Translations under genes and position numbers: made by a program
Notes under the pieces: generated by a model
Told to the model about the DNA's origin: nothing
The model's database searches: none
Seen by the model: only the letters and a program-made list of their open reading frames with translations
Source: Alistipes sp.
GTDB lineage: Bacteria; Bacteroidota; Bacteroidia; Bacteroidales; Rikenellaceae
Length of the DNA stretch: 16,459 nt
Direction of reading: 5' to 3'
Assembly (NCBI GenBank): GCA_017631135.1
Contig: JAGBTW010000016.1
Location: 1-16,459 of the forward strand
Shown: positions 100 to 13,697 of the stretch, piece by piece
How the letters are laid out: each line of letters starts with the position of its first letter
Numbering within the stretch: position 1 is the stretch's first letter

Positions 100-226
100 C
101 GATTTTCGTGATAAGGGGTCATTCTCGGCCTCTTAATCAAAGCCACCACTGGGACGTACGCAAAGTACTACCCATCGGTGGCTTTTTCATGTCGAGACCA
201 AGCCTAACCCCTTCTGACGAAAATCG
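100..226. repeat. Stop-adjacent inverted-repeat element after dnaK (element 1)
   Basis: The element begins on the base after the dnaK stop. The left arm CGATTTTCGT (100-109) is a perfect complement of ACGAAAATCG (217-226). After a 3-base unpaired step, AAGGGGT (113-119) pairs with ACCCCTT (207-213). Inside, TCTCG (124-128) can pair with CGAGA (193-197), and the core is the terminator hairpin at 139-187. The inner AAGGGG/CCCCTT ends recur in the element at 11368-11495, but the outer arms there have a different, again self-complementary, sequence. Function is unknown. It may be an elaborate 3'-end structure, or a small mobile element sitting inside a host hairpin. Confidence 0.65.
139..187 (+). 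terminator. Rho-independent terminator downstream of dnaK
   Basis: AAAGCCACC (139-147) pairs with GGTGGCTTT (177-185), and the 3' side runs into five T's at 183-187. The apical part extends as TGGG/CCCA and then GTAC-GCAAA-GTAC. A strong stem with a T tract just past a gene end is the standard intrinsic terminator layout. The stem is nearly symmetric (AAA on the left), so it could work on both strands. Confidence 0.8.
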
Positions 227-3484: not shown

Positions 3485-4393
3485 ATGAAAGAGATGGTAG
3501 CAAGACCTTTTGTTAAGTGGGTTGGTGGTAAAACCCAGTTGTTGGAAGAGATTAAAAAATCACTTCCAGAGGATTTGCATTTACGTGAAAATGTTACCTA
3601 TATTGAGCCTTTTGTTGGAGGTGGTGCGGTGTTATTTTGGATTTTGCAGTCATATCCTAATATAAAAAGAACTATTATTAATGATATAAATTCAGAACTC
3701 ATTTGTACTTATCGTGTTATACAAAAGAGAGTGAACGATTTGATAGAACATTTAGATAGCATACAAAAACAATACTTGTTGTTAGATGTAGAGGAACGTA
3801 AGAATTACTTCTTGGAGAAAAGAAGTCTATTTAATAGTAAGGCATGTTCCGATGTAGAAATGGCAGCATTGTTTATATTCTTAAATAGAACATGTTTTAA
3901 TGGTCTGTATCGTGTAAATTCCAAGGGTGAGTTTAATGTGCCTCATGGTAAATATTCAAACCCTAAAATATGTGATAAAGATAATCTATTAGCCGTGTCC
4001 AATCTGCTGCAGAATGTTGAAATACTCTGTGGAGATTTTTCTTTGACAGAGGCTTTTGCAGGGGAAAATGTTATTTACTATTTAGACCCACCATACAAAC
4101 CAATATCAGAAACTTCGTCGTTCACGGCGTATGCAAAGACTGGTTTTAATGATGATGAACAAATGAGACTTCGAGATTTTTGTATGCGTATAGCGGATAA
4201 AGGCTCGGTGTTTATTGCGAGTAACTCTGATCCAATTGAAGAGTCTGGAGTCTCATTTTTTGATTACATATATAACAAGTTTTATATTAAAAGAGTGTCG
4301 GCAACTAGATTCGTTAATGCAAATCCATGTAATCGCGGATGTGTATCTGAAATCATGATATCAAATATTGTAAATGCGTATGAAAGACTTTAA
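3485..4393 (+). CDS. Dam-like N6-adenine DNA methyltransferase (D12 class, GATC)
   Basis: This enzyme is predicted to transfer a methyl group from SAM to the adenine of GATC in double-stranded DNA, protecting the host from the neighbouring endonuclease. The 302-residue product begins with FVKWVGGKTQLL, the usual D12/Dam opening. SAM-binding motif I is YIEPFVGGG (39-47) and the catalytic DPPY is at 201-204. Motif I before DPPY is the alpha-class order of Dam, DpnM and M1.MboI. It starts 7 bases after yigZ and overlaps the endonuclease gene by 20 bases. GATC specificity is inferred from family and from the MboI-like partner, not shown directly. No dedicated promoter is visible, so expression may depend on the yigZ transcript. 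Confidence 0.92.
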   Translation: MKEMVARPFVKWVGGKTQLLEEIKKSLPEDLHLRENVTYIEPFVGGGAVLFWILQSYPNIKRTIINDINSELICTYRVIQKRVNDLIEHLDSIQKQYLLLDVEERKNYFLEKRSLFNSKACSDVEMAALFIFLNRTCFNGLYRVNSKGEFNVPHGKYSNPKICDKDNLLAVSNLLQNVEILCGDFSLTEAFAGENVIYYLDPPYKPISETSSFTAYAKTGFNDDEQMRLRDFCMRIADKGSVFIASNSDPIEESGVSFFDYIYNKFYIKRVSATRFVNANPCNRGCVSEIMISNIVNAYERL

Positions 4394-5204
4394 TTTGTTC
4401 ATGTCCCAATTAAGCGAAACTAATGTTACTTTAGAGTCTTTGACAGATTTTGAGAAGGTGTCGCGTAATGTTTCAAAAATAGCTATTAAACTAAATCAAT
4501 TAAACTATTTGTTGGGTAAGACTGATTTGAGACAAGCTATTACTGAATTATATGCAGAGAACCCTGCAACGTTTGAGGTGCTTGATATTTTAGTGGCGGT
4601 GCGTTCTACAGATAGCAAACAAGTCCTCAATGATAAATATAGTCCAGTGTTGATACAATCGTATTTTACAAATATCGATTCTATTTGTCAATATGTTGAG
4701 CGTACAGGATTGGCAGAGGTGTTTTCTTCAAAGAAAATCACCAATTTAGTAGATTATGTGTTTGGTGTTGAGGTAGGACTTGATACAAATGCTAGAAAGA
4801 ATCGTGGTGGAGGCATTATGGCATCTGCAGTAGCAAAGAAATTTGAAGATGCGGGTATTGCATTTGCTATGGAGGTAAATAGTACAGAGTTCCCAGAAAT
4901 AAAAGCTTTAGGCGCAGATCTGAAGCGTTTTGACTTTGTTATAAAAACACCACACAAAACATATCTTATTGAGACAAACTATTATAATGGAGGTGGCTCA
5001 AAATTGAACGAAACAGCAAGGTCATATTCAGATATTGCACCTAAAATTAACCAATATCCAAATTATGAGTTTGTGTGGATAACTGATGGTAGAGGATGGT
5101 ATTCTGCGAAAAATAAATTAGAGGAGGCTTATAATATAATCCCTAGGGTTTATAATTTAGTCTCTATTTCTGATTTCATTAGAGATATAAAGTTGGAGCA
5201 ATGA
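4374..5204 (+). CDS. Type II restriction endonuclease, DpnII/MboI family (GATC)
   Basis: The 276-residue product matches the DpnII/MboI endonuclease family, which cuts unmethylated GATC. The recognisable block is GLDTNARKNRGG (about 138-149), a basic-acidic strand with RFDFVI (Asp187), YLIETNYYNGGGSKLNETA (Glu200 in IETN) and a late WITDGRGWYS. Asp187 and Glu200 are likely metal-binding residues of a PD-(D/E)xK-like fold, though the usual Lys is not obvious. ATG at 4374 overlaps the upstream methylase by 20 bases; a second ATG at 4380 is equally possible. Its stop overlaps the next start as ATGA. Translational coupling after the first methylase would let protection come before cutting. Confidence 0.92.
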   Translation: MRMKDFNLFMSQLSETNVTLESLTDFEKVSRNVSKIAIKLNQLNYLLGKTDLRQAITELYAENPATFEVLDILVAVRSTDSKQVLNDKYSPVLIQSYFTNIDSICQYVERTGLAEVFSSKKITNLVDYVFGVEVGLDTNARKNRGGGIMASAVAKKFEDAGIAFAMEVNSTEFPEIKALGADLKRFDFVIKTPHKTYLIETNYYNGGGSKLNETARSYSDIAPKINQYPNYEFVWITDGRGWYSAKNKLEEAYNIIPRVYNLVSISDFIRDIKLEQ

Positions 5205-6085
5205 TAGTCCCATATTATCGTTCCATTGATAGACAATTCACACTCTTGAAAGGTGATTGTATCGAACTCTTAAATTCTTTTGAATTTAAGTTCGATATGA
5301 TTTTTGCTGATCCTCCATATCATTTATCAAATGGAGGTATATCCGTTCATAGTGGTAGAATGGTTTGTGTCAATAAGGGAGATTGGGATAGGTCGCATGG
5401 CTGTGATGCTGATTACATGTTTGACAAAGAGTGGTTGTTGGCATGTAAACGTAAATTACGAGAAGGTGGTACTATTTGGATAAGTGGAACATACCATAAT
5501 ATATTTTCAATTGCTCGCTGCCTTACGGAGTTGGGCTTTAAGGTTTTGAACTGCATAACTTGGGTGAAGACAAATCCTCCTCCCAATTTATCATGTCGCT
5601 ATTTTACTCACTCTGCAGAATATATATTGTGGGCTCGTAAAGATGCAAAGACTCCTCATTATTACAATTATGAGTTAATGAAGGATATTAACGGTGGTAC
5701 TCAAATGCGAGATGTTTGGAACTTGCCAGCAATAGCGAAGTGGGAAAAGTCATGTGGCAAGCATCCTACACAAAAACCTCTCAACTTGCTTTGTCGCATC
5801 ATTCAGGCTTCAACTAAACCTGGAGCGTGGGTATTGGATCCATTTGCGGGAAGTAGTACCACAGGTGTTGCTGCTAATCTTTTGGGTCGCCGTTTTCTTG
5901 GTATTGATCAAGAAGATGCTTATTTAGAAGTAAGCAAAGCTCGCAAAGAGGAGATTTTGGATGTAGTTAAGCAAAGAGAGTATATTGACAGATTGCAGAA
6001 ACAATCTAAAATATTAGGTAGTAACGTCTGTGGTAATATTTTATCGGACACAATGTCTCAATATTTTGTAGATTTGCCATTCTAA
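5201..6085 (+). CDS. Second DNA methyltransferase of the cassette (DpnA / M2.MboI-like)
   Basis: The 294-residue product is an N6/N4 DNA methylase with permuted motif order. ADPPYHLSNGG, with the catalytic DPPY at 37-40, comes first; HPTQKPLNLLCRII and the SAM-binding DPFAGSST (213-220) come late. This matches the second methylase of DpnII and MboI systems. In Streptococcus pneumoniae the DpnA homologue also methylates single-stranded DNA and protects incoming transforming DNA; whether that holds here is inference. The start ATG overlaps the endonuclease stop by 4 bases. The 3' end carries the -33 box of the likely uvrA promoter. Codon use is as AT-rich as in the two preceding genes. Confidence 0.9.
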   Translation: MIVPYYRSIDRQFTLLKGDCIELLNSFEFKFDMIFADPPYHLSNGGISVHSGRMVCVNKGDWDRSHGCDADYMFDKEWLLACKRKLREGGTIWISGTYHNIFSIARCLTELGFKVLNCITWVKTNPPPNLSCRYFTHSAEYILWARKDAKTPHYYNYELMKDINGGTQMRDVWNLPAIAKWEKSCGKHPTQKPLNLLCRIIQASTKPGAWVLDPFAGSSTTGVAANLLGRRFLGIDQEDAYLEVSKARKEEILDVVKQREYIDRLQKQSKILGSNVCGNILSDTMSQYFVDLPF

Positions 6086-10763: not shown

Positions 10764-10884
10764 TACTGAATAAAAAGTCTATTTTGTCGTTCTTTGTTGA
10801 TATAACAGCGCATCTACTACCGCTAACGAATTATCTCTGCAATGGGCAGTACGCTCGAGTACAGTCCATTTTTATTCAATATCA
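10761..10884. repeat. Stop-adjacent inverted-repeat element after the O-methyltransferase (element A)
   Basis: TGATACTGAATAAAAA (10761-10776), which includes the stop codon, pairs with TTTTTATTCAATATCA (10869-10884) at 15 of 16 positions. Between the arms lies the 91-base repeat shared with 13427-13517. The arms are unlike those of the other three elements, yet placement at a stop codon and enclosure of a shared core are the same. Together with 10897-10932 it fills the first half of the 306-base gap before the Dabb gene. Confidence 0.65.
10779..10869. repeat. 91-base direct repeat, copy 1
   Basis: Copy 2 is at 13427-13517, equal in length with about six mismatches. Predicted folds in both are a small three-way junction (CGTT at 10788-10791 closing with AACG at 10825-10828 around TGTT/AACA and GCG/CGC stems) and, at the 3' end, ATGG...GTAC-GCTCGA-GTAC...CCAT running into five T's here. 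The two 64-73-residue reading frames that start in the copies (MGSTLEYSP and MSSTLKYSP) look non-coding. Confidence 0.75.
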
Positions 10885-10896
10885 CATTGATTATAT

Positions 10897-11069: not shown

Positions 11070-11369
11070 ATGATACGACACATTGTAATGTGGAAGTTCC
11101 GCCGCGATATGGCAGAGACACCACGCGAGATTGCAAACGAGATGAAGAGCCGCCTCGAGGCACTTAACGGTAAGATTGATGGTCTCCTTCGCGCCGAGGT
11201 GGGCGTGAACATCAAAGATACTGCCTCATCTTACGATGCTGTACTCACTGCCGACTTTGAGTCGTGGGAGAAGATGGAGGCATACAAGGTTCATCCCCTT
11301 CATGTCGTAATCAGCGACTACTGCAAGGAGCGTAGACTCGAAAGGGTAGATGTCGACTATAACCTATAA
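11070..11369 (+). CDS. Stress-responsive A/B barrel (Dabb) domain protein
   Basis: The 99-residue product is a single Dabb domain. It has the typical opening MIRHIVMWKF, a helix of about residues 18-35, the central strand DAVLTADFES, and HPLHVVISDYCKERRLERVDVDYN near the end, with the usual HPxH-like pair. Members are small dimeric ferredoxin-like barrels found in plants (stress-induced) and bacteria; the bacterial role is mostly unknown. It has its own promoter and a terminator before it, so it is probably a single-gene transcript. The last two bases of the TAA stop form the start of the 3' inverted repeat. Confidence 0.88.
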   Translation: MIRHIVMWKFRRDMAETPREIANEMKSRLEALNGKIDGLLRAEVGVNIKDTASSYDAVLTADFESWEKMEAYKVHPLHVVISDYCKERRLERVDVDYNL

Positions 11370-11495
11370 TTTGTTGTGATAAGGGGCTATCTTCGACACT
11401 TTGCTTGTCTGAAAAATGCTCATTTACGCACGAGTAAACACCGCTTTTTCAGCCTGCGACAAATTGCCAAATCTAACCCCTTTTGACAACAAATT
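11368..11495. repeat. Stop-adjacent inverted-repeat element after the Dabb gene (element 2)
   Basis: AATTTGTTGT (11368-11377) is a perfect complement of ACAACAAATT (11486-11495). After a 3-base unpaired step, AAGGGG (11381-11386) pairs with CCCCTT (11477-11482). Size (128 bases), the unpaired step and the AAGGGG/CCCCTT ends match element 1 (127 bases), while the outer arms differ. The inside is the nested hairpin at 11405-11462. No coding capacity. Confidence 0.7.
11405..11462. other. Nested hairpin core, copy 1 (putative structured RNA element)
   Basis: Three stacked stems are seen: TTGTC/GACAA (11405-11409 with 11458-11462), TGAAAAA-T-GC/GCTTTTTCA (11410-11419 with 11443-11451, one bulged T), and TTTAC/GTAAA (11423-11427 with 11434-11438). 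The same plan, bulged T and TCA linker occur at 13569-13628 with different bases in the two outer stems. No T tract follows, so it is not a simple terminator. Confidence 0.6.
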
Positions 11496-11510
11496 TGGGT
11501 AGTGGAGATT

Positions 11511-11621
11511 GTCATCCTGAGCGAAACGCAGTGTAGTCGAAGGATCTCCTAAACGAGTGTACACAATGTACTGTTGCTCTTGTCGGCTTCGAGGAGATTC
11601 TTCACTAACGTTCAGAATGAC
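11511..11621. repeat. Dispersed intergenic palindromic repeat (GTCATCCTGAGCG type)
   Basis: GTCATCCTGAGCG at the left and CGTTCAGAATGAC at the right are imperfect inverted arms. GAAGGATCTCCT (from 11539) and its mirror GAGGAGATTCTTC (11591-11603) continue the palindrome. Repeats with this GTCATyCTGArCG...GAAGrATCTCC pattern are common in spacers of Bacteroidota and other genomes. A minus-strand frame across it would read VILNVSEESPR and GDPSTTLRFAQDDN, a familiar false protein. It contains one of only three GATC sites outside the restriction cassette. Confidence 0.8.
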
Positions 11622-11649
11622 ATACACACTAACAAGCCTAACGCAGTTA

Positions 11650-11701: not shown

Positions 11702-13408
11702 ATGCAGAAAAGAATTATTGAGTGCGTGCCCAACTTCTCGGAGGGTCGTAACGCAGAGGTCATCAAGCAGATTACAGACGTTATCGACGCAGCAAAGGGC
11801 GTAAAGCTCTTGGATGTCGATCCAGGTGAGGCTACAAACCGCACCGTAGTAACCTTTGTCGGTGAGCCCGAGGCTGTGTGCGATGCAGCGGTTGCTGCTA
11901 TCAAGCGCGCAACAGAGCTTATCGACATGCGTCAGCACAAGGGTGCTCACCCCCGCATGGGTGCTTGCGACGTATGTCCCTTGATTCCCGTATCGGGCAT
12001 CACTTTGGAGGAGTGTGCAGAGCTCGCACGTGCTCTTGCAAAGCGCATCTCGGAGGAGACAAACGTTCCTACATACTGCTACGAGGCTGCAGCATTCACT
12101 CCCGAGCGTCGTAACCTCGCTGTGTGCCGTGCTGGTGAGTATGAGGCATTGCCCGAGAAGATGATGGACGAGAAGCGCAAGCCCGACTTTGGTGCTCGCC
12201 CCTACGATGAGGGTGTTGCAAAGACAGGTGCTACGGCAGTTGGTGCGCGCGACTTCCTTGTTGCTGTAAACTACAACCTCAATACTACATCTACACGCCG
12301 TGCTAACGCCATTGCGTTTGACGTGCGCGAGAAGGGTCGCCCCATGCGCGAGGGTAACCCCATCACAGGCAAAATCATGAAGGACGAGAACGGCAACACC
12401 ATCATGAAGCCTGGTACACTCAAGGCATGTAAGGCTATCGGCTGGTTCATCGAGGAGTATGGCATTGCACAGGTCTCTATGAATATGACAAATCTCTCTA
12501 TCACGCCTCTTCATGTGGCGTTTGACGAGGTATGCCGCGCGGCAGATGCTCGTGGCGTGCGCGTAACAGGTGCCGAGATTGTGGGTCTTGTTCCCAAGAG
12601 CTGCTTGGTGGATGCTGGTCGTCACTTCTTGCGCAAGCAGAACCGCTCAACAGGTCTTCCAGAGCGCGAGTTGGTGCGCATAGCTATCGAGAGCATGGGT
12701 CTCTCTAACCTCAAGGAGTTCAAGCCCGAGGAGAAGGTTGTAGAGTATATCCTTGAGGCAGAGGAGCAGAAGGGCGTTAAGAAGCTCGTTGATATGACAT
12801 GCACAGGCTTTGCGGAGGAGACTGCAAGCGAGTCACCCGCACCTGGTGGTGGCTCTATCTCTGCATACATGGGTGCTTTGGCTGCTGCGCTCGGCACTAT
12901 GGTTGCCAACCTCTCATCACACAAGGCTGGTTGGGATGACCGCTGGGAGTACTTCTCTAACTGGGCAGATAACGGCATGGGTGTTATGAACGAGTTGCTC
13001 TACTTGGTAGACGAGGATACTGCGGCGTTCAACAAGATTATGGACGTATTCGGCATGCCAAAGGGCACAGACGAGGAGAAGGCTGCACGCGCCGAGGCTA
13101 TGGAGGCTGCTACGCTCTACGCTACCCAGGTGCCTCTCCGCACTATGAAGGCTGCATACAAGGCATTCGATGTTGTTCGCGCTATGGCCGAGGAGGGTAA
13201 CCCCAACTCTGTATCTGACGCTGGTGTAGGTGCTTTGGCTGCACGCTCTGCAGTTATGGGTGCATGCCTCAATGTTAAGATTAACGCTGCGGGCCTCAAG
13301 GATAGAGCTGTTGCTGATGCTTTGGTCAAGGAGGCAGAGGAGATTCAGGCCCTTGCACAGAAAGCCGAGGCAGAGATCTTGGCAGTGGTGGAATCTAAAA
13401 TAAAGTAG
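11702..13408 (+). CDS. ftcD: Bifunctional glutamate formimidoyltransferase / formimidoyl-THF cyclodeaminase
   Basis: The 568-residue product joins two activities of histidine degradation. The N-terminal transferase (about 1-330) moves the formimino group of N-formimino-glutamate to tetrahydrofolate. It begins RIIECVPNFSEGRN and carries AHPRMGACDVCPLIPV with His83, matching the catalytic His82 of the pig enzyme. The C-terminal cyclodeaminase (about 360-568) releases ammonia to give methenyl-THF and has the signature ESPAPGGGSISAYMGALAAAL near 376-396. The fused form, as in animals, is common in Bacteroidota. The gene precedes hutU and hutH, so context agrees with function. A 308-base spacer with a 3' element separates it from hutU, so they may be separate transcripts. 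It contains two GATC sites (11819, 13375). Confidence 0.95.
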   Translation: MQKRIIECVPNFSEGRNAEVIKQITDVIDAAKGVKLLDVDPGEATNRTVVTFVGEPEAVCDAAVAAIKRATELIDMRQHKGAHPRMGACDVCPLIPVSGITLEECAELARALAKRISEETNVPTYCYEAAAFTPERRNLAVCRAGEYEALPEKMMDEKRKPDFGARPYDEGVAKTGATAVGARDFLVAVNYNLNTTSTRRANAIAFDVREKGRPMREGNPITGKIMKDENGNTIMKPGTLKACKAIGWFIEEYGIAQVSMNMTNLSITPLHVAFDEVCRAADARGVRVTGAEIVGLVPKSCLVDAGRHFLRKQNRSTGLPERELVRIAIESMGLSNLKEFKPEEKVVEYILEAEEQKGVKKLVDMTCTGFAEETASESPAPGGGSISAYMGALAAALGTMVANLSSHKAGWDDRWEYFSNWADNGMGVMNELLYLVDEDTAAFNKIMDVFGMPKGTDEEKAARAEAMEAATLYATQVPLRTMKAAYKAFDVVRAMAEEGNPNSVSDAGVGALAARSAVMGACLNVKINAAGLKDRAVADALVKEAEEIQALAQKAEAEILAVVESKIK

Positions 13409-13426
13409 AGAAGCCGTCTAATAAGG

Positions 13427-13517
13427 CTACTTTGTCGTTCTTTGTTGATATAACAGCGCATCTACTACCGCTAACGAATTATCTCGGCAATGAGCAGTAC
13501 GCTTAAGTACAGCCCAT
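13427..13517. repeat. 91-base direct repeat, copy 2
   Basis: It matches 10779-10869 over the full 91 bases with about six differences. Changes cluster in the 3' third; the CGTT/AACG junction region is identical. At the 3' end the GTAC-GCTTAA-GTAC stem is kept although its loop changed. Unlike copy 1 it is not followed by a T tract. Confidence 0.75.
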
Positions 13518-13568
13518 CGCCTCGAAACTCGCCGAGCGTTGTATCTGCACTATTCTCTCAACAAATAT

Positions 13569-13628
13569 GCTTGCCTCGAAAATCCTCATTTACGTCTAGT
13601 AAACTGCGGTTTTCGAGTCTTCGCAAGC
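13569..13628. other. Nested hairpin core, copy 2 (putative structured RNA element)
   Basis: Stems are GCTTGC/GCAAGC (13569-13574 with 13623-13628), CTCGAAAA-T-CC/GGTTTTCGAG (13575-13585 with 13608-13617, one bulged T), and TTTAC/GTAAA (13589-13593 with 13599-13603). Compared with copy 1 the innermost stem and TCA linker are constant, while the other stems changed on both sides and still pair. Confidence 0.6.
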
Positions 13629-13665
13629 CTAAAATTAGCTCTTGTTATACGACTTCAACCAAATT

Positions 13666-13697
13666 GGTAGTGTCTGATAAATCTATTGGACACTACC
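13666..13697. other. Perfect 9-bp hairpin in the hutU leader
   Basis: GGTAGTGTC (13666-13674) pairs perfectly with GACACTACC (13689-13697) around a 14-base A/T-rich loop, ending 19 bases before the hutU start. No T tract follows on the + strand. It may be a leader control hairpin or the remnant of a mobile-element end; the sequence alone does not decide. Confidence 0.55.

Follow-up and report, generated by a model that had tools for sequence, protein, structure and literature searches.

The two nested hairpins at 11405-11462 and 13569-13628 of the window (the whole stretch of 16,459 nucleotides analysed here) are probably the cores of a non-autonomous palindromic mobile repeat of the MITE/REP kind, whose fold is maintained on the complement strand and which is mobilised in trans. 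On this reading they represent a small palindromic mobile repeat and not a new class of RNA, and the repeat belongs to an apparently undescribed, large family of mobile folded DNA repeats. The features of the window that bear on this are the following:

11405..11462, plus strand: first hairpin, tip TTTAC (11423-11427) and GTAAA (11434-11438), core pattern match 11419-11439
11368..11496, plus strand: whole type B element, a nested palindrome of 129 nt, the minus strand being the better-folding one
11385..11477, plus strand: conserved core module matched by covariance model R1 (55.5 bits, E=4.7e-14; the copy is among the 62 training sequences)
13410..13656 (about), plus strand: whole type A element of ~247 nt, with a second palindrome in its left arm
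13551..13642, plus strand: conserved core module, R1 match with the second hairpin 13569-13628 (68.3 bits, E=7e-18; a training sequence)
13440..13567, plus strand: second palindrome inside the type A left arm, of a different family, tip GTAC...GTAC, ends set by eye
13666..13697, plus strand: intrinsic-terminator-like hairpin directly 3' of the type A element, judged from its sequence
100..226, plus strand: related element, an inverted repeat with the type B outer frame GTGATAAGGGG...CCCCTTCTGAC and a different inner hairpin (tip GTAC...GTAC)
10765..10890, plus strand: truncated relative, seen from the direct repeat and its sequence, in which the outermost right arm directly follows the left arm and a piece of the inserted palindrome
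11070..11369, plus strand: Dabb gene (stress responsive A/B barrel; Pfam PF07876, E=9.8e-20), upstream of the type B element
11702..13408, plus strand: formiminotransferase-cyclodeaminase gene, ftcD (Pfam PF07837, PF02971, PF04961), between both elements

An earlier reading of the letters alone (the sequence-only reading) had proposed both hairpins and a plan common to them. Their positions and the shared plan were confirmed in the sequence, while their extent was not, since they are the cores of larger nested palindromes of 129 nt and about 247 nt. The core pattern, CTCATTTAC-N3-8-GTAAAC, matches twice within the window, where 0.00 matches are expected. When each hairpin was folded by itself on the plus strand, the one at 11405 gave a z of -2.60 (3 of 200 shuffles as good) and that at 13569 a z of -5.68 (0 of 200); the corresponding minus-strand values are -1.39 and -5.27, that is, against shuffles these short cores score slightly better on the plus strand. 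Their energies differ little between minus and plus (-13.7 vs -12.2 and -22.9 vs -22.9 kcal/mol). For the whole elements the values are -49.7 on the minus and -36.6 kcal/mol on the plus strand (type B, 11368-11496) and -100.9 and -71.3 kcal/mol, respectively (type A, 13411-13660). The left arm of the type B inverted repeat (11368-11403/11460-11495) begins within TAA, the stop codon of the Dabb gene (11367-11369), and the type A element starts 1 nt past the stop codon TAG at 13406-13408.

Searching the window with R1 gave no match at 100-226 or at 10765-10890. The first of these elements folds at -71.6 (minus) vs -56.0 kcal/mol (plus) and the second at -25.6 vs -22.6 kcal/mol. The palindrome at 13440-13567 overlaps a 99-nt direct repeat (10771-10869 / 13419-13517, 92% identical) and folds at -54.1 on the minus against -27.6 kcal/mol on the plus strand (13450-13567); by eye, a palindrome of this kind is present in five of the 20 copies of the window's own genome (L007, L009, L013, L018 and L020). 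The outer frame of type B surrounds another inner hairpin at 100-226 and also in two relatives (L356 and L360) at the site of a J-domain gene. To judge from these sequences, the frame and the hairpin within it seem to be interchangeable. At 221-241 and 281-301 lies a direct repeat of 21 nt (AAATCGGGTTTCACGCTAATG), 60 nt from start to start, and its first copy overlaps the end of the 100-226 element. The window also carries a DpnII-type restriction-modification operon at 3485-6085 (D12 methyltransferase, DpnII endonuclease and N6/N4 methylase), flanked by a UPF0029 gene and by one large gene that presumably resembles UvrA. Just 3' of the type B element, 11509-11628 is an imperfect palindrome that starts with TTGTCATCCTGAGCG..., ends with ...CAGAATGACA and has a marginally lower folding energy on the plus strand (-41.4 against -38.0 on the minus strand). 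In appearance it resembles two TGTC/CGTC-tagged REP repeats, of the kind described in PMC3733652, placed head to head.

The element is repeated within and among genomes. The core pattern identified 20 copies in the window's own genome, an assembly of 1.29 Mb that is 63% complete, against 0 for the reversed control. R1 had matches in 28 of 37 genomes of the genus and in 35 of 61 relatives, with at least 70 copies each in G001 and G035; these genus counts are lower bounds, with at most 70 candidates scored per genome, and zeros may hide weak variants. In a sample of the phylum, 37 of 296 genomes had R1 matches, a lower bound with at most 14 candidates scored per genome, and 33 of the 37 belong to one family (f42, genomes of 1.6-3.0 Mb), presumed to be Chlorobiaceae. 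The core pattern was also found in genomes of named species, in at least 119 stretches with the same plan and different stems. Among the matches listed, most are from rumen and gut MAGs of Alistipes, Rikenellaceae and Bacteroidaceae, and others, by their record titles, are from Cytophagales, Cryomorpha and Chryseobacterium, as well as from Alteromonas, Kangiella, Halomonas, Gallionella, Woeseiaceae and Alphaproteobacteria. Relatives of the element therefore occur in other Bacteroidota and in Proteobacteria, that is, in more than one bacterial phylum. R1 also finds copies with tips other than that of the pattern. For comparison between groups, copies were assigned by hand to the Rikenellaceae type, other Bacteroidota, presumed Chlorobiaceae and Proteobacteria; the median length of the element is 125-148 nt by group. 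Plasmid and phage records held nothing similar to one 150-base copy, and the 22 viral matches of a 16-base core piece, none with a matching arm, were attributed to chance. Rfam had no match above the gathering threshold in the window, and permissive settings gave three matches far below gathering scores, in agreement with the earlier statement that no named RNA family fits. Open literature, judged by title or start of abstract, held no description of the element family (subscription papers and supplements lay outside the scope of the search), and, among the matches listed, the open full texts that contain core strings were unrelated by title and abstract start.

To explore covariation, we aligned by sequence alone 62 copies, consisting of 60 representatives with less than 70% identity and the two copies of the window. 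Pairing cells amounted to 81.1% against 68.2% in shuffled alignments, and 211 cells were changed on both sides against 75.6 +/- 8.3, involving 18 pairs of the 24-pair structure. The covariation score was 0.321 (0.117 shuffled), and the signal was lost when the partner was slid by 1-3 columns (0.107 or less). The changes on both sides of a pair that the sequence-only reading had taken as the mark of selection for structure, rather than of a chance palindrome, are borne out, since there are further copies and their stems covary; the lack of either would have refuted that reading. Three of the four helices vary in the 62 copies, the TTTAC/GTAAA tip being invariant there because the search pattern demanded it. 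The 85 R1 matches, whose alignment was fitted to the structure and is to be trusted in the tip part, which needs no gaps, showed that this stem does pair but that only TAC/GTA is fixed; its two outer pairs vary jointly (UA/CG; UA/GC/AU), and 84 of 84 pair. The internal loops are fixed while the stems covary, and asymmetric loops are conserved between phyla. Read on the complement strand, the fixed loops are GNAG/TGA under the tip and a loop of the GCGTTA/GCCTTG type, and many copies have tandem GA/GA mismatches, to which the TC/TC mismatch by the AAAA/TTTT stem corresponds.

The mismatches indicate which strand folds, since an A.C mismatch on one strand is a G.T wobble pair on its complement. 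We paired the arms of 163 copies found by the pattern, treating G.T and A.C alike, and counted 167 A.C against 16 G.T on the plus strand, the one that the sequence-only reading had folded, where base composition predicts a ratio of 1.11. Two positions inherited by many copies give 85 of the A.C cells; counted as distinct 5-bp contexts, there are 56 A.C against 15 G.T (p=1e-6). The contexts number 40 vs 6 in the Rikenellaceae-type set, 14 vs 6 in other Bacteroidota and 5 vs 3 in Proteobacteria (the last two not significant), and the presumed Chlorobiaceae have 15 vs 14 cells and 12 vs 4 contexts. In the groups other than the Rikenellaceae type the signal is weak. By energy, the complement has the better fold in 152 of the 163 copies (mean -47.05 vs -39.71 kcal/mol). 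Dinucleotide shuffles reproduce 3.37 of the 7.34 kcal/mol between the strands, so that composition accounts for about half of the difference; measured against such shuffles, the mean z is -5.08 for the complement and -4.07 for the plus strand, the complement being lower in 126 of 163. Among copies of the Rikenellaceae type, the complement is the lower of the two strands in 147 of 155, the corresponding figures being 39 of 40 for other Bacteroidota, 22 of 27 for presumed Chlorobiaceae and 7 of 12 for Proteobacteria. Where the upstream gene is antisense to the copy, the complement still has the better energy in 32 of 35 copies, with 32 A.C against 6 G.T (14 vs 5 distinct contexts, p=0.064); the strand preference is therefore a property of the element and not of the gene.

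Comparison of orthologous sites revealed that some close relatives carry the element where others do not, and the element therefore inserts. Between the Dabb gene and ftcD, 6 of the 14 closest genomes are filled and 8 are empty. In the window (L281), L283, L285, L289 and L290, a type B element follows the stop codon without a gap, a variant type B in L291 uses the element's own stop codon, and the eight empty sites have a spacer of only 23-76 nt. Between ftcD and hutU, the window's genome is the only one of 14 with the element; inspection by eye showed a different palindrome at this site in one relative and a further kind in three. In the spacer behind ftcD, L284, L287, L288 and L293 have palindromes that look unrelated (GGGATGTTCTATAAATTAG...; GTGAAAAGT...), and short 3' spacers may therefore be hot spots for several palindrome families. 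Behind a gene that we take to be J-domain-like, a type B frame is present in 4 of the 15 closest genomes (L355-L369) and surrounds a different inner hairpin in two of these. Behind the gene presumed to be rpoN, the element is present in the window's own genome only, of the 16 shown, and is antisense to rpoN, the remaining spacers being too divergent for comparison. The differing contents of orthologous sites indicate that frames and inner hairpins recombine or nest freely. The sequence-only reading had left the choice between a structured RNA and a DNA hairpin; the second fits better, and a discrete small RNA from the plus strand is not supported, given the excess of A.C mismatches and the dispersed insertion.

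The direction of the copies appears to follow replication in part of the genomes. On three contigs of G015, all 23 copies have one direction per contig (9 on C10, 7 on C11 and 7 on C6; C10 and C11 were covered nearly whole, and C6 for 240 of its 345 kb). These directions match the sign of the overall GC skew or, on C11, that of the segment in which the copies lie. The direction on C6 opposes the gene majority, 60% of the gene bases being on the other strand, and three copies are antisense to both neighbours; the skew at third codon positions, for both gene strands, is positive on C10 and negative on C6. All five copies on C1 agree, among the matches listed, and the directions on C3 are mixed (-,+,-). 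In 20-kb windows of G015 and G030, the direction matches the GC-skew sign in 35 of 44 cases (Fisher p=1.7e-4), against only 14 of 30 for the majority gene strand. Neighbouring copies on a contig agree rather than differ 14 to 2 in G015, 8 to 2 in G030 and 4 to 0 in G028, so that a common direction is present on the three G015 contigs and for the most part in G030 and G028. G035, with at least 70 copies, has no such bias (11 neighbours in the same direction, 10 in different ones), possibly owing to a recent burst or to rearranged contigs, and among the matches listed the rule fails by eye in the presumed Chlorobiaceae. Provided that an excess of G over C is the mark of the leading strand, the strand that folds better is its template.

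We infer that copies are oriented because they insert at the fork, and not because those set the other way are lost afterwards. Under the latter, copies with the stronger hairpin on the lagging-strand template would be lost by cleavage or deletion; orientation-dependent loss of palindromes is known, and the stronger-folding strand is indeed on the presumed leading-strand template in G015. However, the weaker strand still folds on average at about -40 against -47 kcal/mol, a small gap for a 23-to-0 outcome, and G035 lacks the bias. Such selective survival, which is compatible with a mobile repeat in everything save the fork step, is a possibility that we consider unlikely. A direction that follows replication has precedents in Tn7 with TnsE, in IS200/IS605 and in several insertion-sequence families, according to parts of PMC5371812.

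The element is located preferentially behind genes. The nearest stop codon is on its 5' side in 113 copies and on its 3' side in 36 (p=1.9e-10), as counted in the 149 informative copies of 234, with genes taken as ORFs of at least 80 codons, so that single cases may be wrong. Between convergent genes, 53 of 63 copies are nearer the stop of the sense gene. Neither the presumed Chlorobiaceae (9 vs 6) nor the window's own genome taken alone (12 vs 6) shows a significant bias. Of 106 sense copies in the genus/Rikenellaceae-type set, 58 have a terminator-like hairpin at most 110 nt downstream, against 13 of 106 on the other side, with no excess in the other groups; for antisense-context copies of the genus-type set, such a hairpin is 3' of the element in 9 of 24 and on the other side in 1 of 24. 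This test required a T-run on the plus side only. That the terminator may be inside the inserted unit is favoured by the site between ftcD and hutU, where by eye the hairpin 13666-13697 is absent from the spacer of 13 close relatives, and by the antisense-context copies, but not by the site that separates ftcD from the Dabb gene. An insertion is least harmful between a stop codon and the terminator, and this can account for the position with no function involved. The internal loops fixed between phyla are not explained by a position of least harm and suggest that the fold is recognised by some factor. Passages of PMC1590033 report that stem-loops, repeat families included, cluster at gene 3' ends in many genomes.

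We initially read the position at stop codons as a sign of a structured RNA in the upstream gene's 3' untranslated region, acting in mRNA stability, termination or translation and spread because it is useful. The adjoining sense-side stop codons, the terminator-like hairpins downstream and the covarying stems agree with this. The analyses of strand and replication led us to abandon it: the mRNA would be the plus strand, which has the A.C mismatches and the worse fold, the direction tracks the replication strand even in the three C6 copies that are antisense to both neighbours, and many relatives have the same genes without the element. This explanation is accordingly improbable. A small RNA read off the complement, running antisense to the end of the gene and itself the selected product, the repeats being spread small-RNA genes, is very unlikely, for although the wobble-tolerant pairing and the tandem GA mismatches look RNA-like, strand-specific single-stranded DNA would give the same pairing signal, and a terminator-like hairpin would stand just upstream of the start of this RNA in the 58 of 106 sense and 9 of 24 antisense copies mentioned above.

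The flanks of the element differ between groups. In the presumed Chlorobiaceae, exact 4-bp direct duplications flank 9 of 11 anchored copies, against 1.18 expected; the other 16 of the 27 copies were not anchored. For direct 4-mers around Rikenellaceae-type copies, the best offsets gave 7 of 84 (1.2 expected) and 6 of 83 (1.17 expected), none of them consistent. Inverted five-mers at the best offset were instead found in 31 of 82 type A copies (4.54 expected) and in 8 of 8 of type B (1.25 expected). This inverted flank reaches up to and into the stop codon, and it fits no standard transposition. The outer ends GTTTAATTG/CAATTAAAC in L285, L289 and L290 are an inverted copy of the flank that includes the stop codon. 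Between L285 and L283, one outer pair has changed from G-C to A-T, involving a base of the codon and its partner behind the gene, but this single event does not prove selection. Template switching, by which one arm of a quasi-palindrome is rewritten from the other, could in principle produce the paired changes by mutation while extending the arms into the flank; the inverted flank copy in these three relatives is what it would explain. Nevertheless, it should erase internal mismatches, yet asymmetric loops are conserved between phyla, and it yields perfect pairs and predicts no wobble bias to one strand. As a general cause of the paired changes it deserves little credence, and it is likely to contribute at the outer ends only.

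Several candidates for the mobilising enzyme were considered and rejected. The RAYT/Y1 transposase domain PF01797 was found in none of 37 genus genomes, with matches in 19 of 24 other genomes of the order, which speaks against RAYT. An integron integrase was likewise discarded, none of 41 genomes having a match above the TIGR02249 cut-off; weaker matches, present in 41 of 41 genomes and in 14 of 14 controls, are expected of tyrosine recombinases. Reverse transcriptase does not track the element: RVT_1 is present in 15 of 41 genomes, including five in which R1 found none (G002, G007, G009, G012 and G023), and absent from the copy-rich G001, G021 and G035. A gene family recurrent near the copies was not apparent either, the largest cluster having only 4 loci of what looks to us like a sugar-phosphate mutase. 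Finally, an autonomous insertion sequence with the ends of the presumed Chlorobiaceae copies was sought in eight of their genomes. Of 14 GGGCACCTCTA ends with the exact pattern, 11 have an R1 match alongside, two are the arms of one altered element and one shows a single arm, so that 13 of the 14 belong to short elements and one is undecided, and this candidate found no support in these genomes.

Returning to the mobile repeat, the maintained feature would be that the complement strand can form a long hairpin whose internal loops are fixed, the stems being free to change in pairs. Copies would spread by insertion, within the genus mostly into the short room behind stop codons, and would either insert or survive in one direction relative to the fork. 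The trans-acting enzyme may recognise the folded single strand and join it at the replication fork, which is a guess. Going further, the elements might form a new class of fork-coupled mobile hairpins, in which an enzyme other than a Y1 transposase or an integron integrase attaches a folded single strand, be it DNA or RNA, at the fork behind stop codons, the free 3' end of this strand copies a few bases of the gene end so that flank and stop codon become the outer stem, and the core has also been taken up by the target-duplicating elements of the presumed Chlorobiaceae; we offer this as a speculative and rather doubtful proposal. A covarying, strand-specific fold that is present across phyla and spreads by insertion without a known enzyme points either to a mobilisation system still missing from the picture or to some factor of the cell that recognises the fold. 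The data on stop codons, replication strand and inverted flanks lead to testable predictions on how small palindromic repeats move, and the movement of REP-like repeats without a transposase is an open question. In addition, covariation screens for RNA can catch mobile DNA hairpins and may assign them to the wrong strand.

Among known systems, the attC site of integrons is an imperfect hairpin behind a stop codon, in sense orientation, whose bottom strand folds and is recognised by its structure while the stems vary. The element resembles it in lying right behind stop codons in sense, in the folding complement and in the variable stems, and differs in being beside resident housekeeping genes and in having, by eye, no consistent RYYYAAC/GTTRRRY ends. 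ERIC and the Rickettsia palindromic elements are palindromic repeats of ~100-130 nt with a conserved fold, and the likeness, by description only, is in length and fold; the text of a survey of such families makes no mention of Bacteroides, Porphyromonas or Chlorobi (PMC2267715). REP/BIME repeats, which are mobilised by RAYT, are also short intergenic palindromes with tens of copies per genome, and the CGTC REPs are likewise without a known transposase and occur in Chlorobi and Bacteroidetes, as stated in passages of PMC3733652. However, the REPs of that account are 20-40 bp, and the element is several times longer, nested and provided with fixed internal loops; moreover, no terminal GTAG/CGTC tag was seen by eye in the 60 representatives, and no Y1 gene was found in the 37 genus genomes. 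Like MITEs (PMC10969869), the element is non-autonomous, 100-250 bp long and without a gene, with terminal inverted repeats and with filled and empty sites, and in the presumed Chlorobiaceae it also has the 4-bp target duplication. It differs from them in that one covarying core is common to several phyla inside different outer arms, in that the Rikenellaceae type has no consistent target duplication, and in that no parent insertion sequence was found in the eight presumed Chlorobiaceae genomes; this review of prokaryotic MITEs mentions neither Chlorobi nor Bacteroidetes. IS200/IS605 elements have strand-specific hairpins and an orientation that tracks replication, as the element appears to do in part of the genomes (PMC5371812), but they need a Y1 transposase, which was not found in the 37 genus genomes, and the placement expected of them is the opposite, the stronger strand being here on the presumed leading-strand template. 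Also similar by description, in length, phylum and palindromic nature, are the palindromic candidate RNAs of 80-132 bp that passages of a survey report from Bacteroidetes, such as HMP2_4205 with 132 bp (PMC8040213), and these candidates could be members of the element family.
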